Virus record (IMG/VR): IMGVR_UViG_3300026094_000023
Span: 1-30,098 of that record
Reading direction: 5' to 3' (one strand)
DNA from: a virus
Length of the DNA stretch: 30,098 nucleotides
Below, in pieces: positions 9,259-27,600 of this stretch. The stretch's first letter is position 1. Every line of letters starts with the position of its first letter. Position numbers and translations under genes: made by a program. The notes below the pieces were generated by a model. It was not told the DNA's origin. It did not search any database and saw nothing but the letters and a program-made list of their open reading frames with translations.

Positions 9259-9266
9259 TATTTATT
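9259..9266 (-). promoter_or_regulatory. T4-type late promoter box
   Basis: The minus-strand sequence is AATAAATA, ending 18 bases before the ATG at 9240. It overlaps the TAA stop of the carbamoyltransferase gene (9265-9267), so the stop codon and promoter share bases. The predicted transcript start is near 9253, which leaves a leader of about 13 bases. Confidence 0.68.
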
Positions 9267-11034
9267 AATTTTTTATGTAAACTAAACAGTTGTTTTCTGG
9301 AAGGTACAGATATTCAATGTCACTTTCTGCTAGTGTTCTAAAAGCATCATCTAAGGTTTCGACTAACGGTTCGCCGCCAAGATTAAACGAAGTGTTAAAC
9401 AGTATTGGTACTCCTGTTTTTTCCTTAAATGTGGATATTAAATCATAGTATACAGGATTTTGTTCAGAGTTTACTGTTTGTATTCTGCAGGTACCGTCTA
9501 CGTGAATAATTGCAGGTATTTTTTCTGCTACTCCTTCTCTGCAATTAACTGCATACATCATTGTGGGAGAAGACTGCATACCTCTAAGATCAAACCATTC
9601 GTGTGCATCCTCTTCTAGAATTGATCCAGCAAAAGGTCTAAAGTACTCTCTTCGCTTTACTTCGTTAACAAAATCTTTACCGTTTTCGACTGTAGGGTCA
9701 AACAGTAGGCTTCTATTGCCCAGTGCTCTAGGACCGTTTTCTGATCTTCCTTGAAAAAGAGCTACAATATTTTTTTGTTGTAGTTTCTCAACTACACTAT
9801 TATAGTCTGATTGTATCACTTCTGCGTCGTATTTTTCTATTAGTTCTGCAAGAAAAGAATCGTCTATGTTATATTTTGGACCTAAATATAAATCATCTGT
9901 TCTCGGCATTGGCGTTGTACTCTGAGTAATTGACTGATGAATCAAATATGCTGCACCTATAGCGGTGCCAGCATCGTTAGACACTGGCTCTACGTATAGA
10001 TTTATTTCTGGATCAAGATTATTAAGATAATAATAATTAGCAACGCAATTCAAGCCATATCCACCCGAAAGGACTACATTCTTGTTCCCAGTTAACTCAA
10101 CAGCATTGTTAATTAAATCTAGCACTGATTCTTGCGTTTCTGTTTGTACTGCATATGCTAAATCGCGTCGATTAGATAATTCGGTAATGTCGTCTACTTG
10201 CTCGTCTTGTAGTTCTGGATAAACAACCGTGTTTACCAGTGCAGCATTAGGATAAGTTGGAATAATTAAATTCCTATTAACTAGAGTTACTGCAGCGTCT
10301 TTTTCAAATATTGGCGGAATATTATTGTTTTCTTTTCCGTATGGAAAAAGACCCATTGTCTTGCCAGCTTCGATGGCCGAAAAACCACAATACTGTGTAA
10401 CTGCTTCGTATGCTTTTACAATTCCTGCTCTGTCTGAAATAACTACAGCATGCTCTCGACCCGTATCGTCTTTGATATTTTGTATTGAAGCAGGTGCAGG
10501 GCCTCGAAGCCCTATGTGCTTATATTTTGTTTGAAATGTGTCTGGATACCCGCATGCAAATATTGTTTCTGTTTCAAAGCCTATGCTAGAACTTTTCCCG
10601 TCAGATAAAGGAATAAAAGTTCCTGCACCATCTACAACTACTGCTGTAGCAGTTTCAAACCCTGATCTATAAAATGCACATGCTGCATGTAGTTGATGAT
10701 GTATTCCACTTAAGTCAATTACCTGCGGATGACTATCAGCGTCAGCAGTTCTGTCAATTAATCCCAGTTTCCTTGCCATGCCAGTATACATGTTATCGCC
10801 AGTAAAATCAATTATACCAGCAGATTCTTCTAGGCTTTGAGTATGAGCTACTACTAAATAATCTAACCTGTCTGTATACTCTAGTATTTTAACCATTGCG
10901 GCAAAAGGGCTACCGTCGTATTTCTTTCGGCTTAATCTTTCTTCTTCTATAGAAAAAACAATGTTTCCATTTTTTAAAAGACATAAAGAACCGTTATGTC
11001 CTCTAGAAATCCCTGCGATCCATAAATCATTCAT
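9265..11034 (-). CDS. Carbamoyltransferase, NodU/CmcH/TobZ family
   Basis: At 589 residues this is the usual full length for the family. These enzymes make a carbamoyl-adenylate from carbamoyl phosphate and ATP, then transfer the carbamoyl group to a hydroxyl, often on a sugar. The N-terminal half has GISRGHNGS (H13), EEERLSRKK, the metal/carbamoyl-phosphate site IHHQLHAA (H112-H116) and VVDGAGTF (D135). The middle has GKTMGLFPYG and VVLSGGYGLNCVAN. The C-terminal YrdC-like/transfer region has GRSENGPRALGNRSLL, REYFRPFAGS and PILFNTSFNLGGEPLV. All motifs look intact, so it should be active. The ATG overlaps the stop of the GT9-like gene (ATGA at 11031-11034), so the two are translationally coupled. 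The acceptor is probably a glycan made or moved by its neighbours; a modified nucleotide is an alternative. Confidence 0.93.
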   Translation of the reverse strand: MNDLWIAGISRGHNGSLCLLKNGNIVFSIEEERLSRKKYDGSPFAAMVKILEYTDRLDYLVVAHTQSLEESAGIIDFTGDNMYTGMARKLGLIDRTADADSHPQVIDLSGIHHQLHAACAFYRSGFETATAVVVDGAGTFIPLSDGKSSSIGFETETIFACGYPDTFQTKYKHIGLRGPAPASIQNIKDDTGREHAVVISDRAGIVKAYEAVTQYCGFSAIEAGKTMGLFPYGKENNNIPPIFEKDAAVTLVNRNLIIPTYPNAALVNTVVYPELQDEQVDDITELSNRRDLAYAVQTETQESVLDLINNAVELTGNKNVVLSGGYGLNCVANYYYLNNLDPEINLYVEPVSNDAGTAIGAAYLIHQSITQSTTPMPRTDDLYLGPKYNIDDSFLAELIEKYDAEVIQSDYNSVVEKLQQKNIVALFQGRSENGPRALGNRSLLFDPTVENGKDFVNEVKRREYFRPFAGSILEEDAHEWFDLRGMQSSPTMMYAVNCREGVAEKIPAIIHVDGTCRIQTVNSEQNPVYYDLISTFKEKTGVPILFNTSFNLGGEPLVETLDDAFRTLAESDIEYLYLPENNCLVYIKN

Positions 11035-12080
11035 TTAGTTTGTTCCTTACTGGTGTCGATCTTTTTTTTATCTCTGTTTTGCTCTAAATAATTTACTTTT
11101 TTCTGCTGCTTTGATCCGATTAGATTTGACGCCGGAGCACTGTTAATTACAAATTTTTTAAAATTATTTTTTAATGATTCCAAAATTACTTTTTCAATTT
11201 CTTCATTCATTATCATGATACCGTCATTATTTTTATTGACAAGTTCATCTGGCACTATCCGAATAGGGTCATATTTTCTAAGTCCTTCTCCCATATCCTG
11301 TATGTCAAATTTTGTACATTCTGGATACGAAGTATTTTCTGAAAAGGTAGATCCTACAATAACTGTTGCCGGTTTGTCAAAACTATATGCAATGTGTTGT
11401 CCTACAGAATCGCAGCCTAAAAAATAATCTGCTGCTTTGATAATTCCAGCCCAATGACGTAAATCAATATTTTGTGGTTGCGCTACGGGTTGACTACATC
11501 CTTCTTTCTCAAAATCTAGCTGGTATTCGCTCATTAATATAACAGCAAAATCTTTCTGTAATGCCTTTACAAACTGTACAAGATTTTTAAATTCTATACT
11601 TCTGCCAGAGGAATCATTTATAAAATTGCCCATCGGCTGCGCACCTCTTCCAAACGGTTGTATAACAATTACATGATCTTTTTTTGTAGCTGTCTTTACT
11701 TCTTTAATAACATTTGTTCCTGAAATTAATTCTTCTCGTGTTAACCTTATTGTAGGCCGGTTCAGCTCGCGAATGCCTTTATTGTTTACTTCAATATCGA
11801 ACGCCTGTGAAAGATTACATTGTTGATTATAATATTCCCACATTCTATAAGGCTCTAAAGAAACACAGTCCATTTTTTTAATTTTGTTTTCAAATAGATC
11901 TTTATGCCACGCATCGTATGCTCTTTCATGTAACTGAAAGTGTCCTTTAAAAAATTCCATGCCACCTTCACAAACAATAATAAAATCCTCTGTAACTTCT
12001 TCAAAATATTTTTCAAAGGCAGGTATGGAACATAATACCCGCCCGGCGCCGCCATTAATAAAAAATGCTTTGGGTCTCAT
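11031..12080 (-). CDS. Glycosyltransferase of the GT9 (heptosyltransferase) type
   Basis: The 349-residue length and GT-B-like order fit ADP-heptose:LPS heptosyltransferases. The N-terminal half has a degenerate FFINGGAGRVLCSIPAF. The C-terminal nucleotide-sugar half is clearer: VIVIQPFGRGAQPMG, then HWAGIIKAADYFLGCDSVGQHIAY, with DSVGQH at 224-229, and PATVIVGSTF. This matches the family pattern of a D-S-x-x-x-H turn followed by P-x-V-x-hydrophobic-G. A Lys-rich tail of about 45 residues follows. A strong AGGAGG Shine-Dalgarno sits about 10 bases before the ATG, with a late promoter box beyond it. With the coupled carbamoyltransferase it may decorate virion proteins or a glycan. The donor sugar is unknown; the GmhB-like gene in the same window makes heptose a candidate. 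Confidence 0.78.
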   Translation of the reverse strand: MRPKAFFINGGAGRVLCSIPAFEKYFEEVTEDFIIVCEGGMEFFKGHFQLHERAYDAWHKDLFENKIKKMDCVSLEPYRMWEYYNQQCNLSQAFDIEVNNKGIRELNRPTIRLTREELISGTNVIKEVKTATKKDHVIVIQPFGRGAQPMGNFINDSSGRSIEFKNLVQFVKALQKDFAVILMSEYQLDFEKEGCSQPVAQPQNIDLRHWAGIIKAADYFLGCDSVGQHIAYSFDKPATVIVGSTFSENTSYPECTKFDIQDMGEGLRKYDPIRIVPDELVNKNNDGIMIMNEEIEKVILESLKNNFKKFVINSAPASNLIGSKQQKKVNYLEQNRDKKKIDTSKEQTK

Positions 12081-12166: not shown

Positions 12167-12766
12167 ATGAGCGAAAAACTGTTAAGGCAAGCACTTTTTA
12201 CAGTGCCTCTATATAAAATCGGATTTCCCCAACACGAAAAGAACAAAGAATTATATAGAGCATATGTAGACAAACTCATTGATAATTCTCCGGTTGTCGA
12301 CAGACTGGATAAAATTTCTTCTACTACTAAAAAGGCTTTACACACTGTACCTGTATTTGAAGAATTAGTTGGATTCTTAGGATCGCTGTGTCCTAGAATT
12401 CATGAAGATTTTGATATAAGTTTAGATAAAAGCATTGCGGTCTCGGCTATGTGGTGCACTAGATGTGAAAAACACGAATTTATACCAAATCAGACTCAAT
12501 CTAACGGATTTCTTTACGGTGCATATTTTTTGCAAGCTCCGCCTAATTCGGGTGATATTCTTATTACGAATGAAATTGCAGATCGTAATTATTTTGGAAA
12601 TATTTGGCCAGATAGTTCTAACACTATTAATACAAATGTTTTTCAAGGTCAAATTCCAGAAGGAGAAATACTGTTAATGCCGGCGCATCTTACTACTTCG
12701 TATACCTTTAATTACGCTGACGATAATAGATATATTTTAAATTTTATACTACAGGTATTATTTTGA
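12167..12766 (+). CDS. 2OG-Fe(II) oxygenase-like protein, metal ligands apparently lost
   Basis: This 199-residue protein follows the layout of the phage and marine-bacterial 2OG-Fe(II) oxygenase family. It has a core GFLYGAYFLQAPPNSGDIL, a later IPEGEILLMPAHL, and a terminal NRYILNF carrying the co-substrate arginine (R188). Active members have P-H-x-H/D before the S-G-V-Y-Y-L strand and a second His a few residues after P-S-W-L. Here those positions read P107-N-Q-T and LTTSY (T177), so the iron triad is missing. It may be a non-catalytic binding protein. The start at 12167 is the first ATG after an in-frame stop at 12149, with a distant GAAAAGG. The stop overlaps the next gene (TTGA). Confidence 0.65.
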   Translation: MSEKLLRQALFTVPLYKIGFPQHEKNKELYRAYVDKLIDNSPVVDRLDKISSTTKKALHTVPVFEELVGFLGSLCPRIHEDFDISLDKSIAVSAMWCTRCEKHEFIPNQTQSNGFLYGAYFLQAPPNSGDILITNEIADRNYFGNIWPDSSNTINTNVFQGQIPEGEILLMPAHLTTSYTFNYADDNRYILNFILQVLF

Positions 12767-14443: not shown

Positions 14444-15118
14444 TTATTCTGTGTCTAAATCTTCTATAGGAAAATCTATGTCCGGCCACATGTGTCTCGG
14501 CCAATCTCTATATTTGCTAGGTATTTTCTTAACTTCTAATATATAATTATCAATCAACGATATCTGCTCTTGAGTAAGACTATTTTGACTTTTAAAATCT
14601 TTAGCTTCCTGCACAATGTCCTCTACTTTTGGAAAAGGATCTTCGTCTGGGTTTGAATGGTCAGACATAGGTATGTAAAAAGTTCCGTCTTTCTGATTAT
14701 ATATTATATCTCTGATTTCATATATTTCGTCTACGCCGATAGGAATAATATGAGAAAAGAACGGTGTCGATTCGTTTGGTAGATAATAATGCTGCTCAGT
14801 TTCCTCGTTTATTGTTATTTTATTTTCTTCTTGATCTTCTTCGTCGTCGTCTTCGTCGTCATGTGCTAACAAATATGCTAGAAGAGTTTGTTTTTTAGCA
14901 TCCACTAGAACGCTTTTGTTTCCTTCTTGTAACCATGATTCAAGTGTTACTGCATCTTTCTCCAACCTAATACCGCTTTTTTCATCAATTTTATTTTCTG
15001 GAGTGACTTGGATATAAAACTTTTCTGGGCCGTTATATACAGAAGTTTGGGTGAGACCCTTGGTCGTACTAGTTGTGCCATAGACATCAGGTATTTCGTA
15101 AGTAAAGTTTATTAGCAT
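14444..15118 (-). CDS. Acidic protein, possible fibre/adhesin assembly chaperone (224 aa)
   Basis: No known domain is recognised. A very acidic run (AHDDEDDDEEDQEEN, about residues 85-99) lies mid-protein, encoded by GAA/GAC-type triplets. The C-terminal third is predicted helical (ISLIDNYILEVKKIPSKYRDW) and ends with a Trp/Pro-rich stretch, WPRHMWPDIDFPIED. Phage tail-fibre assembly chaperones of the gp38/Tfa type are small acidic proteins encoded just after the fibre tip and often end in an R-D-x-P/W-P motif. The position, 13 bases after the last Gly/Cys-rich candidate adhesin, fits. The functional call rests on position and the terminal motif, so it is tentative. Confidence 0.5.
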   Translation of the reverse strand: MLINFTYEIPDVYGTTSTTKGLTQTSVYNGPEKFYIQVTPENKIDEKSGIRLEKDAVTLESWLQEGNKSVLVDAKKQTLLAYLLAHDDEDDDEEDQEENKITINEETEQHYYLPNESTPFFSHIIPIGVDEIYEIRDIIYNQKDGTFYIPMSDHSNPDEDPFPKVEDIVQEAKDFKSQNSLTQEQISLIDNYILEVKKIPSKYRDWPRHMWPDIDFPIEDLDTE

Positions 15119-15131
15119 TCTTTTATTCCGT

Positions 15132-15983
15132 TTATTTGTATGTAATTCTTACCATGCCTGGATTTCCTGCAGGGCCACACTGACAAGGTCTTTCGCACTC
15201 GCATTCGCAATACCCGACAGCACTGGCGCCGGGTATACCTGGAACATAACCATAACATCTTAGTAATGGTGCAGCAAAAGTCGGCAGTGCTTCCATAGCT
15301 AAACAGTATTGACAATAATTACAGATTCTACATCCAGAGCATTCTCGTTGTTGTGTTTGTACCCAGCCGCCGCATAGATTTACCAATCCTCCTGGATATG
15401 GTATTAGGTGTTGGTTATAAGAAAAACAGTCGGTACTTATGCACTTGGCACAATATTTTCCAGGTAACCCGTTTATATTAATATCGCCGCCGTATGCATT
15501 AGCAGTTCCGCTACAGCACACACCGCAACCCCAGTTGCAGTACATTTCGCCGCCTGGGCCGCCTTGAGCACATAAATCTCCATAAGGGCTGCATACACAG
15601 CTATAGCACCCTTCACAGCCGGTCCAGTTACACGAACAGTTTGTTTTTTGACCGACTATGATTGAAAAACAATCACTCGACAACCCTGTTAAACATTTTA
15701 CAACATATGCGCCAGCGCCACCACCGGGTCCGTATATACAGGAATTCTCGTCGCAGCACGAAGCAAGACCTCCGCCTGCGCCGCCGCCGCCCCACACTTC
15801 TATAGTTGCACAGGTCACAGATGCGGGCGAAATGAATACTTCACAACAACCGTCGTGTTGGTTGTGACCGTCGTCATCCCAGCAGGTAAATTGATAAATC
15901 TCCTGCTCGCCTTCTATCGGTGTCGCAGACGCAATAAGTGATTCTGCTGTAGTTATATTTAATAAATCTCTTAGACTTGCCAT
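15132..15983 (-). CDS. Glycine/cysteine-rich protein A, candidate adhesin (283 aa)
   Basis: This protein has 35 cysteines by count (12%) and dense glycine. It opens MASLRDLLNI, then an approximately 50-residue lead, then the strand and poly-Gly turn IEVWGGGGAGGG. Next are a CC pair, PGGGAGAYVVK and alternating Cys and Gly elements (CSCNWTGCEGCYSCVC; CECECERPCQC). It ends NPGMVRITYK. The WGGGG...GGAGAY...GG order matches the glycine-rich domains of phage tail tips and fibres; the cysteines do not. There is no signal peptide. It has its own late promoter box, 33 bases upstream of the start. It is the most diverged of three tandem paralogues and is followed by the possible chaperone. The likely role is a receptor-binding tip on a fibre; a metal-binding protein is the alternative. 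Confidence 0.72.
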   Translation of the reverse strand: MASLRDLLNITTAESLIASATPIEGEQEIYQFTCWDDDGHNQHDGCCEVFISPASVTCATIEVWGGGGAGGGLASCCDENSCIYGPGGGAGAYVVKCLTGLSSDCFSIIVGQKTNCSCNWTGCEGCYSCVCSPYGDLCAQGGPGGEMYCNWGCGVCCSGTANAYGGDININGLPGKYCAKCISTDCFSYNQHLIPYPGGLVNLCGGWVQTQQRECSGCRICNYCQYCLAMEALPTFAAPLLRCYGYVPGIPGASAVGYCECECERPCQCGPAGNPGMVRITYK

Positions 15984-16016
15984 TGTTACATACTTCTTTT
16001 ATTTTTTTCTTTTAGA

Positions 16017-16024
16017 TATTTATC
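16017..16024 (-). promoter_or_regulatory. T4-type late promoter box
   Basis: The minus-strand sequence is GATAAATA, ending 33 bases before the ATG at 15983 and just after the stop of the previous Gly/Cys-rich gene (16029-16031). It would give protein A and the acidic protein after it a transcript separate from the other two Gly/Cys-rich genes. Confidence 0.62.
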
Positions 16025-16028
16025 AACT

Positions 16029-16877
16029 TCATCTATAGGTTAACTTTACCATCCCAGGGCCGCCTCGCCAGCCATAACAACAGCCGCCGCCGCACGCAGT
16101 CGCACTAGGTCCTCCCATTCCTACCGCTTGACTTGTCTCCTGACCGCTCCAGCTTGCAGCACAATGAATCCACTCGTTGTTACAAGCACACCCTTGATTA
16201 CGCATTATATTATGCCCGCCTTGCTTGTTATTAAGACCGCCTGGATAAGGCAATGCCTGTTTGAAGCAGCACATTGATGTATTACATTCTGTAAATGAGT
16301 ATACATAGCCAAGCACTCCTAATGCTCCTTTATCGGCATCATTGAAAGTTGCTTGATTACAGTTATCCAAATACCAAAAAGGACAAGTTACCGCAGTACA
16401 ACAAGACCGAGGATATGCGAAACAACAGGTTTTCCCACCAAAGCCGCCTTCTGCATGAAAACAATCGAGTCTATTTCCCAGTATGTAGCTACAACATCCA
16501 CGACAGCCTTGACAGATTTCTGAACATCGACCACCGAATCCTACACAAACTACGTAGCAATCTCCAGCATCAACTGCGATAGTTTTTTCTGCAAATGCTC
16601 CGGATCCGCCTGGAACCCCTTGCTGACAGCAACGTGCGCCGCCGCCGCCGCCGCCGCCGCCCCAAAGATAGAATGTTGCTTCGGTGGTTCCGGTTGGCAC
16701 ACACCATCTCATAAATTCACCATCTCTTGTATCACAGCAGCCTGGTGTGTCTTGACAGAAAGGCATAAGAGTTATGATGTTTCCGCTGTATTGAAATGCA
16801 ATAGCAACTTCCCCTGCATCTACCTCAGACTGTGTTACTGTATCAAACTTACCAAAATATGTTCTTAAACCCGCCAT
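16029..16877 (-). CDS. Glycine/cysteine-rich protein B, candidate adhesin (282 aa)
   Basis: The chosen start is the ATG at 16877 (MAGLRTYFGKF), two bases after the stop of protein C. It matches MASLRDLLNI and MPSLRTLLNTF in the paralogues; an ATG at 16946 in the same frame would add 23 Arg-rich residues and overlap protein C by 67 bases. The protein has 29 cysteines by count. Order: an approximately 55-residue lead; YLWGGGGGGGGARCC with eight consecutive glycines; VPGGSGAF; AGDCYVVCVGFGG; CQGCRGCC; AEGGFGGKTCC; ALPYPGGL; and a conserved end, ACGGGCCYGWRGGPGMVKLT. It is closest to protein C, sharing AEGG.GG and CGGGCC.GWRGGPG. It likely forms a glycine-rich, disulfide- or metal-stabilised tip. 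Confidence 0.72.
   Translation of the reverse strand: MAGLRTYFGKFDTVTQSEVDAGEVAIAFQYSGNIITLMPFCQDTPGCCDTRDGEFMRWCVPTGTTEATFYLWGGGGGGGGARCCQQGVPGGSGAFAEKTIAVDAGDCYVVCVGFGGRCSEICQGCRGCCSYILGNRLDCFHAEGGFGGKTCCFAYPRSCCTAVTCPFWYLDNCNQATFNDADKGALGVLGYVYSFTECNTSMCCFKQALPYPGGLNNKQGGHNIMRNQGCACNNEWIHCAASWSGQETSQAVGMGGPSATACGGGCCYGWRGGPGMVKLTYR
16638..16661 (-). repeat. (GGC)8 triplet tract coding for eight glycines in protein B
   Basis: On the plus strand this is eight GCC units without interruption. On the coding strand it reads in frame as GGC, giving the Gly8 run after YLW. Shorter similar tracts sit at the same place in the other two paralogues (near 15782-15791 and 17558-17573). Length changes by whole triplets would keep the frame. 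Confidence 0.85.
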
Positions 16878-16879
16878 AA

Positions 16880-17782
16880 CTATGTCCAACTTACCTTTAT
16901 TAATCCTGGGCCGCCTCTCCAGCCACAACAGCAGCCGCCGCCACAAACTCTTGCAGTAGTGCCTCCGACTCCTATACCTGGACCTATTCGGCCGCCGCCG
17001 CCTGCTACATGATCGTTAAACATGCTGCCGCGCCTACAGTCGTCACGTTGGGTGCCTGTATTGCAAAATGCTCTGGTCACCTTATAAGTAGTAGCCTGAG
17101 TGCCTAGGCCCGCTGGCACCGGAAGTGCTACTTTGTAATAACACCAGTTACTACTGCAACAAACATCAGTTTGCAGCCAACCATGTTCGCCTGTTGCTCC
17201 GGTAGCAGTTTCAGGAACTCCGTTTGGTTGATTTACTGCAGCACCATAATAACATGCGTTATTGTTTGCGCAAGGGTGTTCTAGAACGCCACATCCGCCA
17301 TTAGGAAAACAGTTGAAAAAGAAACAGATTCCGCATCCGCCTTGCCCTCCTTCTGCACAAAGATTACTTACACCTGGCCCGTTCCAGTAGGTAGTACATC
17401 CTCTATAGCCGCAACAAGAATTTGGGGAACAGCAGCCTGCTGATGGAAAACACATACAGTGATTGCCACTGTAACCGTTTGCAGAATTATCTAATAAAAG
17501 TCTTGCATAGGCACCGGCGCCGCCCGGCGGGCCCCACGAACAACAACAACCGCCTGCGCCGCCGCCGCCGGCCCCCCAAAGTTCAAGAGTTACAAACTGC
17601 ATAGAGTCTTCTATGCAAAAATCGCCCCAGCAGTCGTTGTCTAGCTCCGTGCAATACCCGCACAATCCGTACGACGCTAAAAAATATTGGCTCAGCTGTG
17701 TATCTCGTTGCCATCTCGGTGCAGTTCCTGCATCTAGTCCCGAAGGATCAAACGTGTTTAATAGCGTTCTTAAACTAGGCAT
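16880..17782 (-). CDS. Glycine/cysteine-rich protein C, candidate adhesin (300 aa)
   Basis: This protein has 30 cysteines by count. It begins MPSLRTLLNTFDPSGLDAG and has an approximately 60-residue lead. Then come LELWGAGGGGAGGCCCSWGPPGGAGAY, the Cys clusters CMCFPSAGCC and CCGYRGC, LCAEGGQGGCGIC, LPVPAGLG, a glycine patch AGGGGRIGPGIGVGG, and the end CGGGCCCGWRGGPGLIKV. The WRGGPG terminus is shared with protein B and is the clearest proof of duplication. The start has AGGAACATAAC upstream. It is the second gene of the unit that begins with the small fibre-like protein at 18116, with one base between that gene's stop and its own start. It has no signal peptide or transmembrane segment. Confidence 0.72.
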   Translation of the reverse strand: MPSLRTLLNTFDPSGLDAGTAPRWQRDTQLSQYFLASYGLCGYCTELDNDCWGDFCIEDSMQFVTLELWGAGGGGAGGCCCSWGPPGGAGAYARLLLDNSANGYSGNHCMCFPSAGCCSPNSCCGYRGCTTYWNGPGVSNLCAEGGQGGCGICFFFNCFPNGGCGVLEHPCANNNACYYGAAVNQPNGVPETATGATGEHGWLQTDVCCSSNWCYYKVALPVPAGLGTQATTYKVTRAFCNTGTQRDDCRRGSMFNDHVAGGGGRIGPGIGVGGTTARVCGGGCCCGWRGGPGLIKVSWT

Positions 17783-17783
17783 G

Positions 17784-18116
17784 TTATGTTCCTATTAATA
17801 TCCATCCGTATGTTGTTCCGCTATACATAATTGTGATAGTAGCACCGTCAACATCGATATCAAGATTTTCAGAAGTACCCTGTATTAAAGCACCGTTTCT
17901 GTCAATTGTTATAACGTTGGCTCCTGCACTACTTACAACGTCTATAAACTGTATAGTATCATTTACTAATAATGATGAAACTATCGGTAAGGTCACAGTA
18001 AAAGATCCGCCGCTGCTATCTAACAAAATTCTATCATTTACTTCAGCATCGTAGTTAGAACTAATTTCTCTAACAACTGTAGATGCTGTTCCTGTTTCAG
18101 ATATATATCTACCCAT
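17784..18116 (-). CDS. Small fibre-type virion protein (110 aa)
   Basis: This short all-beta protein reads GGSFTVTLPIVSSLLVNDTI, then FIDVVSSAGANVITIDRNGA, and ends SGTTYGWILIGT. That combination of a TVTLP strand, NxxTIDRNG and a terminal YGW is common at the ends of phage tail fibres and in small structural proteins of marine T4-like phages. Here it stands alone as its own gene. AGGAATT precedes the ATG, and a late promoter box lies 24 bases upstream. As first gene of the unit that also makes Gly/Cys-rich proteins C and B, it may be the fibre segment those tips attach to (inference). Confidence 0.72.
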   Translation of the reverse strand: MGRYISETGTASTVVREISSNYDAEVNDRILLDSSGGSFTVTLPIVSSLLVNDTIQFIDVVSSAGANVITIDRNGALIQGTSENLDIDVDGATITIMYSGTTYGWILIGT

Positions 18117-18140: not shown

Positions 18141-18148
18141 TATTTATT
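18141..18148 (-). promoter_or_regulatory. T4-type late promoter box
   Basis: The minus-strand sequence is AATAAATA, ending 24 bases before the ATG at 18116. It overlaps the TAA stop of the 106-residue gene (18147-18149). It would start the unit made of the small fibre-type protein and Gly/Cys-rich proteins C and B. Confidence 0.68.
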
Positions 18149-18467
18149 AATTTATTGGTGTTTCTATGCCGAACGCTACTGCACTGACATTAACAGCAGA
18201 CGACCTAATAACAATACGTTTGTCTGCATCTAAAACCAAACCTGTGCGTTCTAGAACGCCTTTGGGTAGCAGTTCTACGTCGTACTCAATAAATTCAGCG
18301 TTTGTAGGGGTGTCTGCTTCTGCAATTGCAAGTCTTATTGCAATTGCAGCGTTGCCTCTATTTACTATGCTTACGCTTGCAGCAGTAAATGTGTCTGCTG
18401 GACAAGTGTAAAGTACTGTGTCTGTTGCTACTGCAAGGTCTGCAGCTCCTAATCTTCCAGATGCCAT
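18147..18467 (-). CDS. Small virion structural protein (106 aa)
   Basis: This all-beta protein opens MASGRLGAADLAVATDTVLYT. It continues with CPADTFTAASVSIVNRGNAAIAIRL in the middle and DKRIVIRSSAVNVSAVAFGI near the end. The pattern is familiar from small structural proteins in marine T4-like phages, encoded next to the large fibre genes. It has no enzyme motif, signal peptide or membrane segment. A GGAG Shine-Dalgarno lies about 10 bases before the ATG, and the gene follows the 2029-residue protein by 12 bases, so they share a transcript. The exact position in the particle is unknown. Confidence 0.7.
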   Translation of the reverse strand: MASGRLGAADLAVATDTVLYTCPADTFTAASVSIVNRGNAAIAIRLAIAEADTPTNAEFIEYDVELLPKGVLERTGLVLDADKRIVIRSSAVNVSAVAFGIETPIN

Positions 18468-18479
18468 TGTTGTTCTCCG

Positions 18480-21400
18480 TTATTGTGATAGAAAGAAATT
18501 TAGAGCAGCTGGCACGCCGTCTATTCCTTTTGCAAAGTTCATCTTCTGTTCTACAACAATCTGATTACCTGTTGTAGTTAATATCTGCCTTTCAAGTATC
18601 TGTATTTCACCAGCGGTAATACTATTTACGTTAAGTGATGCAGCGCCGCCGCCAATCTGTGACGTAATAAACGTTTTGATTGCTTTCTGCGTTGGCACTA
18701 CAGAATCACTGTCAGCAGCAAAAGTCCCGTCTGCTGAGAATTCTGTAATTGTTACACCTGTGCCACCAAGTCCAAGCTGTCCTAACGAAAGCTCGTTTAG
18801 CCCTGAGATGTTAAAAGCATCGGCATTAAGAGTGGCCACGCCTGTTGACTGTTCGATTGAAAACAGCTCGCCTACCCTAAAGTTACCATCTTGGTCAGTC
18901 GAGGTATAAAATACTCTGCCACCGTCGCTTTCTCTAGTTTCTGCTTCTGGATCCGGATCGTACTCAGGTTCGTTTGGATAATTTGTTTCTTCTTTATTAC
19001 CGGTACCAATATCAAGAAAGTCGTGTCCAGTTAGTCTTACTTGACTGAACCTTATGCGTAATTCTACTTCTGTTTCGTGAGGCGCAGCTTCACTGATAGT
19101 AAGTTCTGGACTTACTTGTAGCTGAGCACTAAATGGAGGTTCGTCGCCGAACTCGCCTGTTCCTAAGAGCTGTCTAATAACTACAACTTTGAATACTTTA
19201 TTAGGAAGATGTCCGAAAACAATATTAGAGCCAGCTTCGGGAATATCTGTAAGTTGTTTTACTCTTACAAATTCGCCAGGCTGGAATTGATCTGCAAAAC
19301 CGTCGCCTGTTACTTCTGCTTGTGCAGTTTCAAATGCCTGCCCTCGATTTATCCAAGTAGGCTGTGTAAGAACACCGTCCCCTATTCTTGCTTGAGTCGG
19401 AGCATCTATTGTGTTGTTTGGATCTACTATAGTTACGTTAGGAGCACTAGTATAGCCAGTGCCTGGGTCCCATATATTAATCTGAACAACTTTTTCGTCG
19501 TCTACAACTGCTCTTGCTTTTGCAGCATTAGTTGCAAATTGAAGTGCCGGTAATGTGTCAAATTCGAATATGTCATTGTCAAATTGATTTACATATAATT
19601 TCTCGCTGTCGTTGCGTAGATATATACCAGTGCTTTGGGAAGATCCTCCGTATATGCTGAAATCAAAAATCGCATCAGGACTGGGATCTAAAGTTGATAT
19701 GTCCCAGGGAGTAGAAAGAATATGTTTTTGAATAGTATTTTGTCCACTGACGCCCTGCGTTAGAACTAAAATAGTACCATCGCCGTTAAAATCGAAACCA
19801 CCGCCGAAGCTAGGACTCGTGTCTGCAGTTTGAGAAAGAGAAGCTGTTGAAAGGTCCCATGCTGTTGAAAGATCATATTCTGTTATAGAGTCGAAACCTA
19901 TTGCTAGAACAAACATTTTTGTGCCATCTGGCTTAAATGTAACCTCAAATGTTCTCTCCGCTATAGACAGAATGTTTCCAGTATAGGAGGCAGTTGTTAT
20001 ATCATAAGGCGTTGAGAGATCATATTCTCTAATTTCTCCGTTATCGCTATCAACATATACCGCGATGTATAATTTCTGACCGTTGTTCCCTATATATAAG
20101 CCATAAGCTCCTACACCGGGTAATCCGAGATCTACAGTTTTAAGACTAATGCCAGGGCGGTCGTCTATCGACGTTATATCCCAAGCTATGTCTAGATCTG
20201 CTTGGAGAAGTGAATCGCCCTGGTCAGTTGCATACACTCGTCTACCGTCTGGTTTGAAAAACACACCGTGTTGAAGACCTGAAAGGTTGGTTGAATTGTT
20301 TAACTGTATATCATTAAAAGTACTGAAATCTGCGCCACGAGGTGGATCAATAACAACTCTCGGTTCGATAAGATACGATGTACTAGCGTCAAGATTAGTT
20401 TCTACAGAAACAACTCCGGGTACAAGGACATCCCATCCTGGACGATACAAGAACATTAATCCGGTTTCTGTAGTAAGTGTTCCCGGAGAAACCAGTGTAA
20501 TTGCTGTTGCACTAACTACTGTATCTATCACATAAACCGTAGCACTGTCAAGGCCTCCGAATTCGGTACCAGTAAATCTTATATTGTCTCCTGCAGATAG
20601 TTCTGCAGTTGTAGCAACTGTGATTTCTCCTGTGCTTGCATCGACTGCTGTTGTTTCAATAACACCTACTGCTGAGTCTCCTATTTGCGCTATCTTTGTC
20701 CCGCTGTTATATTCTGCAATAACACCATATTGTCCGGCCCCGAGACCAGATGCTATAAAAATAGCTAAGCCAAATAGCTGGCTAGGTATAGCTACTTCAG
20801 TGTTAGAAAGCGTTATCGAAGTAGCATTACCGCCTTGTGCCGCATTCTGACTTGTGAAGTAGTTGTCTCCGCCGAAGTCTCCTTCGCCGTCGCCGGTTAC
20901 ATCGGTGTCTAGCATTCTTACTTCAAAAACACCTCCGTCGACAGTTTGCGGTGTATCAAGTTCTGCATTAAACCCTTCGCCTGTAACTATAAATTCTGTG
21001 CCACCCGATGTGTAGTTTTGTCCTGCATTTGAATATTCGAAAGTTAAAATTTGATCGCCGGTTGTAAAAACTCTGTTTACACTTGCTTCAAATGCTCTGT
21101 TATCTACTTGCCCAATTGTGGGAATTTCTGTTCCGTCTACACCTTCCGCTACAGTACCAAAAGTACCATAAGAACTGTTACCATTGGTTGCTCTTATTTT
21201 TCCGCCGTTTTCTGCTAGATATCCGATGTGAGCATAGTAGGAGAACACAGAAACAAGTTCTGTTCTTCCTAGGTTAGTACACCACGCTCCGATTCCATCT
21301 GAAATTACCTGTGTGAAATCGTTTGCTACAATAGAATCATTGCCGCCGTTGTGGAGGTCTCCGTCAATTTTACAACCCACACATCCTGTGCCGAATGTAG

Positions 21401-24400
21401 TAACATTTTGCACGTACGGTGATCTTGCTTTGATCCAGACTCTTTCATCGTCTGGTCCCCAGCCTGGGTCGAGACTTACATAAGCCCCAGCTGTTGGACG
21501 CTTGGTTCCAAACTCGTTTTCTGCAGACAGTGTGCCTGTTAAGCCTGCTACCGTGCAGTTACGAAGACCAGTTCCGTTTCTCATATAGAACATGTCTTCA
21601 GCAGTGCTTCCTAGAACAGAATTCACATAATATTTGGCTGCTAGCAGTGACTTGTAATTTCCTGTGTAAAGTAAATCATACTGCACTGCTGAAATATATC
21701 TGTCAATATCTCTTCTACAGGCAGATTCGTTAAACTCATAAGAAGGATTCTCTGCTTTGATAAAAGCAATAGCTTCTTCAATAAGAAATGCTCTATTCTT
21801 TTCTATGGCTTCTACAGCATAGGTGTAGCCTGTGTTGTTATTAACAATATTGCTTCCTGCAGTTTTGGGTTCTGTAGAATCGCCTGTAACACCGTTAATA
21901 CCCCAATCAATATAATCACTTATTTGCTGGAAGAGTTCAGCAGCATCCTCGCCGGCTTGGGCACTTCCTAATACCGGATCTGTAACAACATAAGTTTCTG
22001 TGTTTCCAGAAGATGCTGTAAATGCGCCTTCATCTCCGGTTACAATAGGATCTATAATTGTCTGCAATCTAGATATTGCATCTAGAGAATATGTTACGTC
22101 AGAAGCTTCTACTATCTGTTCAGCTGGTTCAATTCTTGTAGATCTAAGCTCGTCGCCTGCTACCGCGCAATTTTCTGGAACTATAATCGGTAACACTTCT
22201 TTCATAGTTCCGGTTTTTACAAAAACTGTGCTATTTGGTATATTTACAGCTGGTAGATTTGTAGTGTCTTCTGCTAGCAGAGCATTGGTAATAATATCAA
22301 ATAAACTTTCAATTACTGTTAGTGCATCTGATTCTGCGTCCGAACTAGTAAATGTTTGAGAAAAACTAATTGTCGTAGAGACCGGAACATTACGTAATAT
22401 AGGGTCTATCACAGTTTGCATATACACAAGAGCGTCAACAAATTGTTCGTTCTCATTTGCCATTTCTGTTATTAGAGATCCTGAATCAAAATAAGTCAGT
22501 GTCTGACGTCTTGTTTCTGCATTACCGGCATGAGTTAGGTCATATAGTACAACATCAATAACTTCATAAAATTCTGATAGTGTAAGAAATTCTTCATCGT
22601 TTGTAAAACCTTCCCATATAGTTCCTGCTTCTTGGGCTGTTATTTTTTCGTTCACATATCTAAGAGTTTCGTTTTGTATGAACGCTGTGTTAAGCTCTAT
22701 TAACTTTCGTGCATCAGGTCTTAGAATTCCGTTATCAATCTGGGAGGTAGCATATCTAATTGTTTTAAAAGGCTGATCAATTGTAGAGCCGTAAATCGGA
22801 GCAGGTTCGTCTTTGCCTTCTTGTGGCTCAACATAAACAATATTGTTGATCTGTCCTACATAGGCCCACTCTGGTGCTGTTTCGTCTTGTCTTACTCTGA
22901 GGACTTGTCCAGGATCCCCTAAAGGTAATGCTGCAGGGCCAGTGCCGCTGTAGTACAGCAAATCACCAACCTGTCCTAGCACATTGTTTTCAGGACCGCC
23001 TGATAGCAGGCTCCAATAAATTCCGTTTGTGTCTTGATCTGGTCTATTTTGTTCATCGCCTTCGTCGGCTATATGAGCAAGAATGCAAATATAAGAATTT
23101 GTTACTTCGTCTCCGTCGGTAAATGTCAAAGAAACCGCATCACCCGCATCATAAAATGCGCCATCAGTCCAAGCATCTTTCCATTCTATTCCTGGGTTTA
23201 GTTCTGCCCAAAATTCAGTATTCGGAGGGCGCTCACTAGTTTCATGAGTTTTGATACATAGATAAGAATATCCGCCAAGACGTACTACATCTCCTACTTC
23301 ATATTCTTGTGTTACACTATCTTCTGCGTATTCTCCTACAAATCTAAAACCCGTGCTAAACAGTTCCCAGTCTGCAGTGCTGTCAATTGGCTTTACATTA
23401 GTATTATTTGAGATAGCGGTGTAGACATAGCCGCCGAAACTAACAACATCGCCTATTTGATATCTTTCTGAACTATTCCAGCTGTCCTCAAATTCTAATC
23501 CGTCAACAAATTGATTCCATTTAGACTCGTCGTCTGTAAGATCGCTTCCGCTTATATGCTGCTGAACGCAAATCCATATTCCGCTACCATATTTTACAAG
23601 GTCATTAACACGGAATCTAGCACCTGCTACCCATTCTCCTCTGTAGTCTACACCTTTATGAAAGAAGTTCCATTTTGATTGGTCAGCTTCTAATCCTTCA
23701 TTAAACGTTTCTGCTGATAAATGCCCTTCGTTTGCTACATAGATTATTCCGCCATATCTTACTATATCGTTACGTCTGTAGCGTATCAGCGGTTGCCAAT
23801 CTCCTTTCCAGTCTAGGCCTTTAGAGAATATATCCCATTTATCTATATCTGCTTCTAAGCCTTCGTTACCTGTTAAAGCAGAAACGTGTGCTTTTGTACA
23901 TATGTAGATTGTACTACCGTATTTGACAATGTCATTTACATTGTAGGTGTTATCTGTTGTCCATTCTTCTTTATAATCAAATCCTTCTGCATATAGATCC
24001 CATTTTGCTCGATCAGACTCTAATCCTAAAACAATCGAGCCGCCTTCTACATAAGAATCATTGACACTAGATTCAATTGTAACAGAGCTAGTAGTTGCGC
24101 TTGCAACTGTAAATGTTCCATTGTATAGATTATTAGGATCACCGTTGCTTACTACGTTGCTAATTTCAATAGTTTGACCTTCTTCAAAAAGAATCCTACC
24201 TGTGTCTGCAAATGAAATTGACACTAAATCTTCTTCGCTGTCTGGCACTACGTTTGTTATTGAAATTTCTGACGACGGAGCACTTGTGTGTTCTGTATTC
24301 GCAATGTATAAATATCCGCCATTTTTTACAACGTCGTTGACTTTATACAAATTAGACGAAATCCAATCACCCTTCCACTCTTGTCCTTCAGATAAAGTAT

Positions 24401-24569
24401 TCCAGTAAGATTCTAAGTCTTGTGCAAAACTTGTAGAACTAGTGTGGGTAGCAATACACAGATATGTTTTACCGCCATGTCTTACAATATCGTCTTTCAA
24501 AAAAGATGTATTTGGTGTCCAATCTTCTTTCCAAACAAATCTAATTCTACCTAATCTAAATTCAGCCAT
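18480..24569 (-). CDS. Giant fibre-like virion protein 1 (2029 aa) with a YVTN/WD-like beta-propeller
   Basis: Order of parts, with approximate residues: eight CBM5/12-like repeats (11-523); start of a pectate-lyase-like beta-helix (YVEPQEGKDEPAPIYGST, 576); two inserted helical modules (626-770, and 923-976 with ACRRDIDRYISAVQYDLLYTGN); the beta-helix core with GLRNCTVAGLTG, AGAYVSLDPGWGPDD and HNGGNDSIVANDFTQV (1003-1135); a propeller of about five blades (1420-1675) with FKPDGRRVYATD and LSTPWDIST-type repeats; and a conserved end with RLTGHDFLDIGTGN and FYTSTDQDGNFRVGELF. This domain set is typical of large fibres or spikes of marine T4-like phages. No hydrolase catalytic set was recognised. 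GGAGC precedes the start, and a late box lies 21 bases upstream. Confidence 0.82.
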   Translation of the reverse strand: MAEFRLGRIRFVWKEDWTPNTSFLKDDIVRHGGKTYLCIATHTSSTSFAQDLESYWNTLSEGQEWKGDWISSNLYKVNDVVKNGGYLYIANTEHTSAPSSEISITNVVPDSEEDLVSISFADTGRILFEEGQTIEISNVVSNGDPNNLYNGTFTVASATTSSVTIESSVNDSYVEGGSIVLGLESDRAKWDLYAEGFDYKEEWTTDNTYNVNDIVKYGSTIYICTKAHVSALTGNEGLEADIDKWDIFSKGLDWKGDWQPLIRYRRNDIVRYGGIIYVANEGHLSAETFNEGLEADQSKWNFFHKGVDYRGEWVAGARFRVNDLVKYGSGIWICVQQHISGSDLTDDESKWNQFVDGLEFEDSWNSSERYQIGDVVSFGGYVYTAISNNTNVKPIDSTADWELFSTGFRFVGEYAEDSVTQEYEVGDVVRLGGYSYLCIKTHETSERPPNTEFWAELNPGIEWKDAWTDGAFYDAGDAVSLTFTDGDEVTNSYICILAHIADEGDEQNRPDQDTNGIYWSLLSGGPENNVLGQVGDLLYYSGTGPAALPLGDPGQVLRVRQDETAPEWAYVGQINNIVYVEPQEGKDEPAPIYGSTIDQPFKTIRYATSQIDNGILRPDARKLIELNTAFIQNETLRYVNEKITAQEAGTIWEGFTNDEEFLTLSEFYEVIDVVLYDLTHAGNAETRRQTLTYFDSGSLITEMANENEQFVDALVYMQTVIDPILRNVPVSTTISFSQTFTSSDAESDALTVIESLFDIITNALLAEDTTNLPAVNIPNSTVFVKTGTMKEVLPIIVPENCAVAGDELRSTRIEPAEQIVEASDVTYSLDAISRLQTIIDPIVTGDEGAFTASSGNTETYVVTDPVLGSAQAGEDAAELFQQISDYIDWGINGVTGDSTEPKTAGSNIVNNNTGYTYAVEAIEKNRAFLIEEAIAFIKAENPSYEFNESACRRDIDRYISAVQYDLLYTGNYKSLLAAKYYVNSVLGSTAEDMFYMRNGTGLRNCTVAGLTGTLSAENEFGTKRPTAGAYVSLDPGWGPDDERVWIKARSPYVQNVTTFGTGCVGCKIDGDLHNGGNDSIVANDFTQVISDGIGAWCTNLGRTELVSVFSYYAHIGYLAENGGKIRATNGNSSYGTFGTVAEGVDGTEIPTIGQVDNRAFEASVNRVFTTGDQILTFEYSNAGQNYTSGGTEFIVTGEGFNAELDTPQTVDGGVFEVRMLDTDVTGDGEGDFGGDNYFTSQNAAQGGNATSITLSNTEVAIPSQLFGLAIFIASGLGAGQYGVIAEYNSGTKIAQIGDSAVGVIETTAVDASTGEITVATTAELSAGDNIRFTGTEFGGLDSATVYVIDTVVSATAITLVSPGTLTTETGLMFLYRPGWDVLVPGVVSVETNLDASTSYLIEPRVVIDPPRGADFSTFNDIQLNNSTNLSGLQHGVFFKPDGRRVYATDQGDSLLQADLDIAWDITSIDDRPGISLKTVDLGLPGVGAYGLYIGNNGQKLYIAVYVDSDNGEIREYDLSTPYDITTASYTGNILSIAERTFEVTFKPDGTKMFVLAIGFDSITEYDLSTAWDLSTASLSQTADTSPSFGGGFDFNGDGTILVLTQGVSGQNTIQKHILSTPWDISTLDPSPDAIFDFSIYGGSSQSTGIYLRNDSEKLYVNQFDNDIFEFDTLPALQFATNAAKARAVVDDEKVVQINIWDPGTGYTSAPNVTIVDPNNTIDAPTQARIGDGVLTQPTWINRGQAFETAQAEVTGDGFADQFQPGEFVRVKQLTDIPEAGSNIVFGHLPNKVFKVVVIRQLLGTGEFGDEPPFSAQLQVSPELTISEAAPHETEVELRIRFSQVRLTGHDFLDIGTGNKEETNYPNEPEYDPDPEAETRESDGGRVFYTSTDQDGNFRVGELFSIEQSTGVATLNADAFNISGLNELSLGQLGLGGTGVTITEFSADGTFAADSDSVVPTQKAIKTFITSQIGGGAASLNVNSITAGEIQILERQILTTTGNQIVVEQKMNFAKGIDGVPAALNFFLSQ
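23000..24540 (-). repeat. Eight CBM5/12-like repeats in giant fibre protein 1
   Basis: Each unit of about 50-65 residues has the order W-K-x-x-W, x-Y-x-x-x-D-hydrophobic-V-x-Y-G-G-x-x-Y-x-C/A, H-x-S, then W-x-x-F-x-x-G. This is the chitin-binding CBM5/12 pattern of a Trp, a GDxV turn and a Tyr. Unit 2 carries an inserted beta segment of about 60 residues. Boundaries are estimates. Confidence 0.75.
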
Positions 24570-24602: not shown

Positions 24603-27600
24603 TTATTCGAGACCAAAACCGCCTGATGTAGAATAAAACTGTAGTGCAAGGTACTGTCCTCCTACACCGCCGTTTATCTGCATAGGCGAGTCAACATTTA
24701 TTGACAGTCCTGATGTAGTGTCAATACTGTTTCCTTGTATTTCTATTTGTCCTGCGACTAATCTGTTAGTTTGAGCATTTGAACCACCGCCTGAAACCTG
24801 TCTTAAGATATATTCTGCAATGGCTGCTTGAGTCGGGACAATAAAGTTACTGTTAGCTACAAAAGTAGGATCTCTTGAGAACTCTCTAATAACCACCTGT
24901 GTTCCGCCTACCTGTATGCCACCTAATGCAAGTTCAGTAAGCCCAGAAAGATCAAACTGACTTGCATTAATAGTAACAATACCAGATGCTTGTTCTACTT
25001 TAAATAGTGTTCCAACATTAAAATTACCGTCTTGGTCTGTTGAAGTATAGAATACTCTTCCGCCGCCTCTTGCTCTAGTTTCATTAAACGGCTGAGCAGC
25101 ATTTTCAGAAGTTTCGCCTTCGACATATAATTCTGGATAATTTGTTTGTTCAAAATTACCTGTGCCTATATCAAGGAAATCATGGCCGGTAAGTCTTATT
25201 TGGCTATATTCTTCGCGTAATATTAGATTCGTCCCCGTAGTAGGTGATTCTAATACATCAATCGGTGGATCGATCGAAACAGTTGCGTTAAAGGTTTCAC
25301 CTGTTTCTACTACGTTGTCTACTGATACTAGATTATATCTTACATCCGTTATTCCGTCAATTGCTACGTTAGCGCCAGGACCTGGAATCCTAGTTAAGTT
25401 AGACACATTTATTTGTTTGCCTGTTTGAAATAATTCAGCAAATCCGTTTCCTGTAATTTCTGCAGCAGCAGAAGTATAACCAGAGCCTCTGTTTGCCATT
25501 TCTGGCTGGGGCAATACTCCGTTGTTTAGATTTACTGTATAAAGCGCTTCGATTTGAACACTGTTGTCTTGTATAATTACTTCAGGTGTTTCCGAATAGT
25601 TACTGCCAGGATCATATATAATAAATTCATCTATACTAGATCCTTGCATAGCTGTTCGAATAATCGGCCTAGCTCCTGTAGTTATTGCGTTCCAATTACC
25701 CCCATTATCATTGACTGCAATCCAATTACCTGCATTATATGCAGAATTTTTCCAGGTGCTTGATTCAGTTAAAGTGTACTCAGAACTGTCGTCTTGCACT
25801 GTTTTCCAATAGATTCCGCTTTGGCTTTTTGCTACTGTGAATCCCGAACCCGTTGCTATGAAAACTCCTGCGCCATATGAAACATATTCATAGTCTCCAA
25901 TTTCAATGGCATTTTCTTGCCATGACACGCCGTCGAAACTAATTGCAACTCGTGTTATTTGATCAGTTGAATCCGAAGGCGGTGCAATTGCAACAAATCT
26001 TCCATTGCCGTAAGTAAGATCTGTCCAGTTATAATTTGGAATTGCATTAGTATATATAGTCCACTCAATACCTGCATTTGTAGATACTGCTACATCACCA
26101 ACTTCGTTATCTATAGTAACAAATATTCCATTACCATATTCTGCTAAATTCCATGCTCTTTCTACTTGCGGAAGTGGATCGTCATTGCTCCAGGTAGCAC
26201 CGTTATCAGCTGATCGAATGTTGAAGTTTTCGCCAATTAAAATAATACTGCCTTCGCCGTCTACAGCAATTGCATTCCAATTATCAGTAAATCCAACACT
26301 TCCCAATAGCCACGAACTCCCATCTTGAGATGTTGCAATAGAATCTGTAGCAGATCCATCTGACTCTGCACTAAAAGAAATAACATATAACTCGTTGCTA
26401 TAAACAATACCACTTGCTGCTTTTGATGCTACTTCTATAGGATTTACCCAGCTAGTGCCAGTACCGCTAGTTGATATTTTTGTTTCTGTTGCTGATTTTG
26501 TTGTTGCTATAAACTGATCTCCGTAAATAATATAATGCCACGGTTCGGCTGTGTCAGGAGAAGAAACACTTGCCGATTCGAATATTGGTTCTGAAATATC
26601 TATTTTTGGCTCTATCGAGTATCTTGTTGTTTCGTCTAGTACATTTTCTATAGGCCACCCTGGTTGGAAATTATCCCATCCATTTTGTCCGTCGTATTCG
26701 CGACTTACTATAATATCCTTTGTCTCGGCATCGAAAGCAGCGATTTCTGCGTATTGACCAACGCCTCTTCCGCTTATGATTCTAATTCTTTGCCCAATGT
26801 AGTCTTCGCTTTCTCTAGAATCGGCTTGTGATATTCTTATACTTTTTGCAGTGCCAGATTGCGCACTGTTTATAGTATTTGTGTATTGATTGCCGCCTGG
26901 CAACGAAGAATCTTCTGGACCGAGTACCCTGATACGAGAAATAGCCCCGTCTCTAATTTCTTTATACGTTCCGTCGGCGTCTATACCAGAGCCCGAAAAC
27001 GCAATCGAAGCCTGATTATACGCCTCGCCTGCATGTAGATATCCTAGTGCTATAATTTTTTGTTCGTTAGTACCAAAAGTTATAATTTCTTCTACTTGTG
27101 CTTCATTTCTAGTGTTATCAATTGTAGCAGTTGTAGGAGTTTCATTAGTATTAAATCCTTCTGCAACAGATCCGAATTCTCCATAGGAATTATTTCCGTT
27201 TGTTGCTCTTAGAATTCCGCCGTCTGTCGCTAGATAACCAATATGACAATAGTAGGTAAACACTGACACTAATTCAGATCTACCATTGTCAGATGCCCAG
27301 TAGCCTATACCGTCAGACAGTACCTGCGTAAAATCATTTGCAACAATTGATCGGTTCCCACCGTTGTGCAAAGAACCATCTATCCGCATGCCGATGCAGC
27401 CTGTACCAAAAGTAGATACATTTTGCACATAACACGACCTAGTTTTTATCCAAACAGACTCGTCGTTAGGCCCTTCGCCGGGATCAAGGCTCACATATGC
27501 TCCTGCACTAGGTCTACGTGTTAAAAACTCATTCAACTCTCCTAACTCACCTTCTAGTCCTCTAAAAGACATATTTCGAATACCGCTTCCGTTTCTAACA

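Follow-up and report, generated by a model that had tools for sequence, protein, structure and literature searches.

Three paralogous cysteine-rich proteins of a T4-like cyanophage as likely tail-fibre heads with a conserved cysteine framework

We analysed a stretch of viral DNA of 30,098 nucleotides (IMG/VR record IMGVR_UViG_3300026094_000023), hereafter called the window, in which three adjacent genes encode cysteine- and glycine-rich proteins (Table 1). The original prediction, made from the DNA letters, regarded them as candidate phage adhesins stabilised by disulfides or metal. The positions, lengths and cysteine counts that it gave are exact, on the minus strand, and the shared MxxLR-type starts (MASLR, MAGLR, and MPSLR) and shared ends (NPGMVRITYK, GPGMVKLTYR, and GPGLIKVSWT) occur in all three proteins as it described. 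For copy 2, the open reading frame list contained a 305-residue frame starting from TTG; the ATG at position 16877 results in 282 residues.

The three genes are flanked by giant fibre genes on one side and by a sugar/carbamoyltransferase block on the other, and the gene order of the window is that of Kyanoviridae cyanophages, e.g., S-CAM1, S-CAM3, S-SSM7, and P-SSM2. In the loci compared, genes of this family always reside behind the giant fibre genes and before a chaperone-type gene. The seven CBM_5_12-like stretches of the 2029-residue fibre suggest a chain of small carbohydrate-binding modules. Genes for 2OG-Fe(II) oxygenases are found near the cluster in several phages, including the window (12167-12766, plus strand) and the related locus L018 (L018:8347-8934).

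Table 1. Genes of the fibre region and syntenic markers in the window.
Feature	Position	Strand	Size and composition	Matches and remarks
NolO-like carbamoyltransferase, syntenic marker	9265..11034	-		PF16861 9e-60, PF02543 4.9e-26
Conserved neighbour at the P-SSM2 T4-GC 302 place, syntenic marker (GC302)	11031..12080	-		phmmer relatives at the same place, 276 loci
Probable tail-fibre assembly chaperone	14444..15118	-	224 aa, acidic	Immediately downstream of copy 3; phrog_9740 8e-11
Cys/Gly-rich head protein, copy 3	15132..15983	-	283 aa, 35 Cys (12.4%)	phrog_4205 1.8e-33; PF21722 2.1e-5; copy-3 ortholog in locus L018
Cys/Gly-rich head protein, copy 2	16029..16877	-	282 aa, 29 Cys (10.3%)	phrog_4205 6.2e-50; PF21722 9.6e-8; AF2 model; Foldseek 7ypx
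Cys/Gly-rich head protein, copy 1	16880..17782	-	300 aa, 30 Cys (10.0%)	phrog_4205 9e-37; AF2 model; Foldseek Bxb1 tail tip, Pam3 fibre
110-aa fibre-like protein p110	17784..18116	-	110 aa	Upstream neighbour, same place in relatives; PHROG tail / tail spike families
106-aa fibre-like protein p106	18147..18467	-	106 aa	Conserved upstream neighbour; phrog_11338 tail fiber protein 2.2e-10
Giant tail-fibre protein	18480..24569	-	2029 aa	CBM_5_12-type repeats (PF02839 1.6e-31, 7 stretches); phrog_9851 tail fiber 4.6e-201
Giant tail-fibre protein	24603..29750	-	1715 aa	phrog_9851 tail fiber 1.8e-181

The protein encoded immediately downstream of the three genes gave no direct Pfam match itself and matches phrog_9740 only, a family with a listed function of unknown. 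Because 15 of its 32 relatives at that position match PF16778 (Phage_tail_APC, best 1.5e-11), phrog_9740 is probably a family of tail-fibre assembly chaperones. Relatives of the downstream gene also match PHROG tail fibre assembly families.

Flanking fibre proteins contain 0–0.9% cysteine, in agreement with the earlier statement that neighbouring virion proteins have almost none. Among 1,409 distinct non-family reading frames of at least 200 residues in related loci, the mean cysteine content is 1.2% and only four reach 5%; two of these four are cysteine-rich proteins encoded at the position of the family genes, and the other two are apparently spurious frames. The high cysteine content of the window proteins is not due to chance. 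A 228-residue protein with 7.9% cysteine and a different sequence lies at the same gene position in another locus (L063:747-1433), possibly an unrelated cysteine-rich fibre tip. The abundance of CC and CxC motifs, which had been pointed out before, holds family-wide (5.1 CC versus 2.8 expected; 4.2 CxC versus 2.8 expected), whereas in the three window proteins it is about what their 10–12% cysteine alone would produce, with CC mildly enriched in two of them (p ~0.015) and CxC in none. An enrichment of CxxC was looked for across the family and not found.

Profile searching, proposed as a check with the original prediction, placed all three proteins over nearly their full length in an existing cluster, phrog_4205 (PHROGs v4, function unknown), which also matched all 19 reference relatives at nearly full length. 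Annotated isolates with relatives are S-CAM1, S-CAM3, S-SSM7, S-SSM6a, P-SSM2, P-SSM5, and Sf-FS3, where the label is always “(conserved) hypothetical protein”. No family member was found in S-SM1, S-PM2, and Syn9, the phages with virion proteomes named in PMC3037559, so these proteomes carry no information on the family. From IMG/VR scans with family members as queries and an independent scan with the neighbouring carbamoyltransferase, we collected 586 distinct complete members (196 at 70% identity). All 586 contain between 6.1 and 14.6% cysteine (mean 10.1, sd 1.05), a range defined by a profile that itself favours cysteine-rich sequences, so that cysteine-poor cousins such as Syn9 gp38 (2 Cys) fall outside the set. 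Members were carried by 67 of the 80 carbamoyltransferase-anchored contigs, and most of the remaining 13 end before the place. Neither tblastn of copy 1 against phages nor a single-protein scan of viral contigs gave a match, whereas scans with other members and with the neighbour did find relatives. A cellular origin was rejected, as the genome scan gave just two matches, both in metagenome-assembled bins. Two strongly diverged members with ~12.5% cysteine (L080:3829-4860 and 4870-5841) fall close to the detection limit of the family profile.

The cysteines are conserved as well as the glycines or better across relatives, with 83–90% of them kept at 45–70% identity. In 229 near-independent close pairs, cysteine is replaced at a rate of 1.8%, compared with 5.1% for Gly, 6.0% for Trp, 9.8% for Tyr, 16.5% for Asn, and 22% for Ser. 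Silent changes in cysteine codons (20%) are similar to those of other two-codon residues; the constancy is therefore due to selection on the protein and not to slow mutation. The structural importance that had been ascribed to the cysteines is thus strongly supported. Nine positions are near-invariant (82-84, 141, 152, 159, 160, 203, and 239 in copy-2 numbering), even though copy 2 itself has no cysteine at 82 and 141. The head proteins are less conserved than p106, p110, GC302, and NolO in every divergence bin, in a comparison of locus pairs that are not independent. Cysteines this constant in a protein that otherwise changes suggest that a scaffold, covalent or held by metal, carries the variable loops. 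The design of a frozen cysteine framework in a fast-changing protein is known from small toxins. We found it in no phage adhesin paper within the searchable literature.

We modelled copies 2 and 1 with AF2 using the family alignments and compared the models with the PDB by Foldseek. Both models are confident (pLDDT 84 and pTM 0.82 for copy 2; pLDDT 80 and pTM 0.80 for copy 1), and both match the Pam3 fibre 7ypx with a probability of 1.00 and TM-scores of 0.45–0.55. Copy 2 matched 7ypx with an E-value of 5e-8 and moderate TM-scores (0.50/0.55), and copy 1 matched the Bxb1 tail tip (1.3e-6) and the Pam3 fibre (3.5e-6). As for the monomer, the proposed structure-prediction check yielded phage tail-tip proteins as the best PDB matches of both copies and no storage-protein match. 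The family profile found no true match among PDB sequences; fold comparison alone gave matches. Copies 2 and 3 exceed the Pfam gathering cut-off (24.3 bits) for PF21722 (Gly_rich_2), which 10 of the 19 relatives also match, and copy 1 gave no match to it. P-SSM2-type members have, as judged by eye, a helix-like N-terminal stretch with a heptad-like pattern, and one group of other members starts with an “FPDGTCQRTQ” segment resembling fibre motifs. The confident models predict that copies 1 and 2 share the fold of the TNF-like and glycine-rich (Pam3 gp24-type) fibre head.

The tail-tip fold matches and the downstream chaperone group give the term “phage adhesin” good support as far as predicted fold and gene locus are concerned; virion location, receptor binding, the disulfides, and their timing are what we infer. 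The adhesin proposal was supported by the fold, the chaperone, and the fixed place behind the giant fibres, except that the nearest architecture is that of Pam3 gp24 and not, as originally suggested, that of S16 gp38. On balance, we consider it fairly likely that the three products are paralogous heads at the distal end of the tail fibres (receptor-binding proteins) in a T4-like cyanophage, with a cysteine framework most probably serving as disulfide staples.

Each head would have a short attachment segment at its N-terminus and a TNF-like β-sandwich that bears a lattice of glycine-rich loops like that of Pam3 gp24. Its folding would probably be aided by the chaperone encoded directly downstream, and the giant fibres encoded upstream would probably carry the heads. 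Some 29 cysteines in each head could form a fixed framework, most likely of disulfides that staple subunits internally and to one another, as the intervening loops diversify. The cytosol is reducing, from which comes the idea that the bonds might close only after lysis, as reduced particles leave the cell into oxic water.

How the cysteines are bonded is less clear-cut than their importance. Cysteine counts are even in 90 of the 196 members of the 70% identity set, without a parity preference; in close pairs, changes of a single cysteine (50) outnumber changes of two (20); and no clean covarying cysteine pairs emerged, the covariation of cysteine columns having tracked subfamilies. Strict pairing found no support in the parity of cysteine numbers and changes or in the paired-change test, and these alignment statistics argue against every cysteine residing in a fixed intrachain disulfide. 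The lack of parity and pairing would be compatible with bonds that are redundant or link subunits, or with metal clusters.

The strongest alternative keeps the tail-fibre heads but makes their cysteines ligands of a metal (Zn, Fe, Cu, or Fe-S), which would stabilise the head or offer iron to the host, along the lines of the “Ferrojan Horse” hypothesis, in which phage tails carry iron. The family-wide enrichment of CC and CxC, the near-invariant CCC and CC positions, and the tolerated single-cysteine changes without parity constraint, which fit redundant clusters, speak for it. Against it, CxxC, the motif typical of Zn and Fe-S sites, shows no enrichment, histidine makes up just 1.8% of residues by composition count, and no Pfam metal-binding family was matched. 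Metallothioneins contain few aromatic residues, unlike these proteins with ~11% W+Y+F, and a metallothionein or other metal-storage protein, likewise without a Pfam match, was rejected. In favour of metal, a marine phage whose tail fibre has six predicted iron-binding domains is reported (PMC11705849). Taken as a whole, we regard the metal alternative as rather unlikely. Provided that the adhesin reading is right, disulfides would have somewhat better than even chances and metal a clearly smaller share, as cysteines in a surface-type domain that would end up in oxic water, the aromatic-rich composition, the low histidine, and the lack of CxxC enrichment point toward disulfides.

Exactly three copies are present in 180 of 192 complete loci and in 50 of 57 after redundancy removal. 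In a tree, copies 1, 2, and 3 group by position much more strongly than in shuffled data (0/500), and each window copy is paired with its counterpart in L018; the copies are therefore old, with their order kept within clades. Compatible with the adhesin heads, the three copies could assemble into one heterotrimer, each forming one face of the tip, in line with the number three, with copies staying distinct and ordered within clades, and with the trimeric Pam3 gp24 (PMC9608196). However, loci with one or two copies occur, including P-SSM2 with two, which weakens the strict form, and the copies of the S-SSM7 group are closer to one another and cluster partly by genome. We consider such a heterotrimer unlikely.

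Still less probable are heads residing off the adsorption fibres, as a decoration, whisker, or collar protein or as a fibre accessory without a receptor role. Three paralogues per phage could indeed occupy different sites, but the structures matched by fold belong to tail fibres and tail tips, the chaperone and giant fibre genes are adjacent, and faster divergence than that of the flanking genes fits a host-facing surface. A secreted or intracellular cysteine-rich product for metal storage or redox buffering, merely sitting in the fibre module, would account for the very high cysteine content but is highly improbable given the specific fibre-head fold, the missing storage-protein match, the strict synteny with the fibre module, and the aromatic-rich composition.

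Returning to the disulfide-stapled adhesin heads, marine T4-like cyanophages are abundant and their receptor-binding proteins mostly unidentified, and the family provides a concrete and easily recognised candidate at a fixed genome place, in which cysteines are the most constrained residues of an otherwise fast-changing protein. Should the disulfides form only once the particle has left its host cell, the tips would undergo a chemical maturation after release, with a bearing on phage decay and infectivity at sea. Tentatively, one might go further and envisage a widespread adhesin class whose rapidly changing receptor loops are held by a frozen framework of ~30 cysteines per head instead of by polyglycine packing, with post-lysis oxidation completing the maturation of the fibre tip as a redox switch for infectivity.

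The earlier statement that no phage adhesin of this kind is described holds for the searchable literature, in which we found no cysteine-rich cyanophage fibre protein, although a PHROG without a name already covers the family. Phrog_4205 is a cluster only, and its library entry records no fold, role, or cysteine character. The cysteine-rich form is a widespread variant of the TNF-like/glycine-rich tail-fibre head, undescribed in that literature. For S16 gp38, we know of no cysteine framework, and its structure (PDB 6F45) is absent among the PDB matches listed for the two models. Its glycine-rich loop lattice with a variable distal tip is likened to the window proteins via Pam3 gp24, with which it shares the lattice (PMC9608196).

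Syn9 gp38, a Gly_rich_2 protein (PF21722), is a structural match located behind a fibre gene like the window genes, but contains 2 Cys in 266 residues and 22% Gly; Syn9 carries ordinary low-cysteine Gly_rich_2 proteins behind its fibre gene. Syn9 gp39 (L311:31149-32327) resembles a Gly_rich_2 head that has been duplicated and contains stretches out of frame; it may be a copy of gp38 with a frameshift. Syn9 gp36 (L311:28855-29805), also behind the fibre gene, contains 35% Gly and 8 Cys and may be an intermediate head type. The Bxb1 tail tip and the Pam3 fibre carry a TNF-like and glycine-rich head that is also present in ALK/LTK. The TG (TNF-like and glycine-rich) domain of these animal receptors is a fold match for copy 2, ranking after phage tail-tip proteins (E ~1e-3) with a weak global TM-score (~0.28).

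The closest known system is the Pam3 fibre (PDB 7ypx, 7yfw), the best or second-best fold match, with which the window genes have the pairing of adhesin and chaperone in common. Besides a helical docking domain and a TNF-like domain, Pam3 gp24 has a lattice of glycine-rich loops, the variable distal ends of which are believed to bind the receptor, and it requires the trimeric chaperone gp25 (PMC9608196). Its glycine-rich domain contains 39% Gly, and cysteine is never mentioned in that paper (PMC9608196). By comparison, the window proteins, with 16–19% sequence identity to Pam3 gp24, contain 15–19% Gly over their whole length, below the ~39% of the glycine-dominated lattice domain of Pam3, together with 10–12% Cys, and are encoded in three copies.
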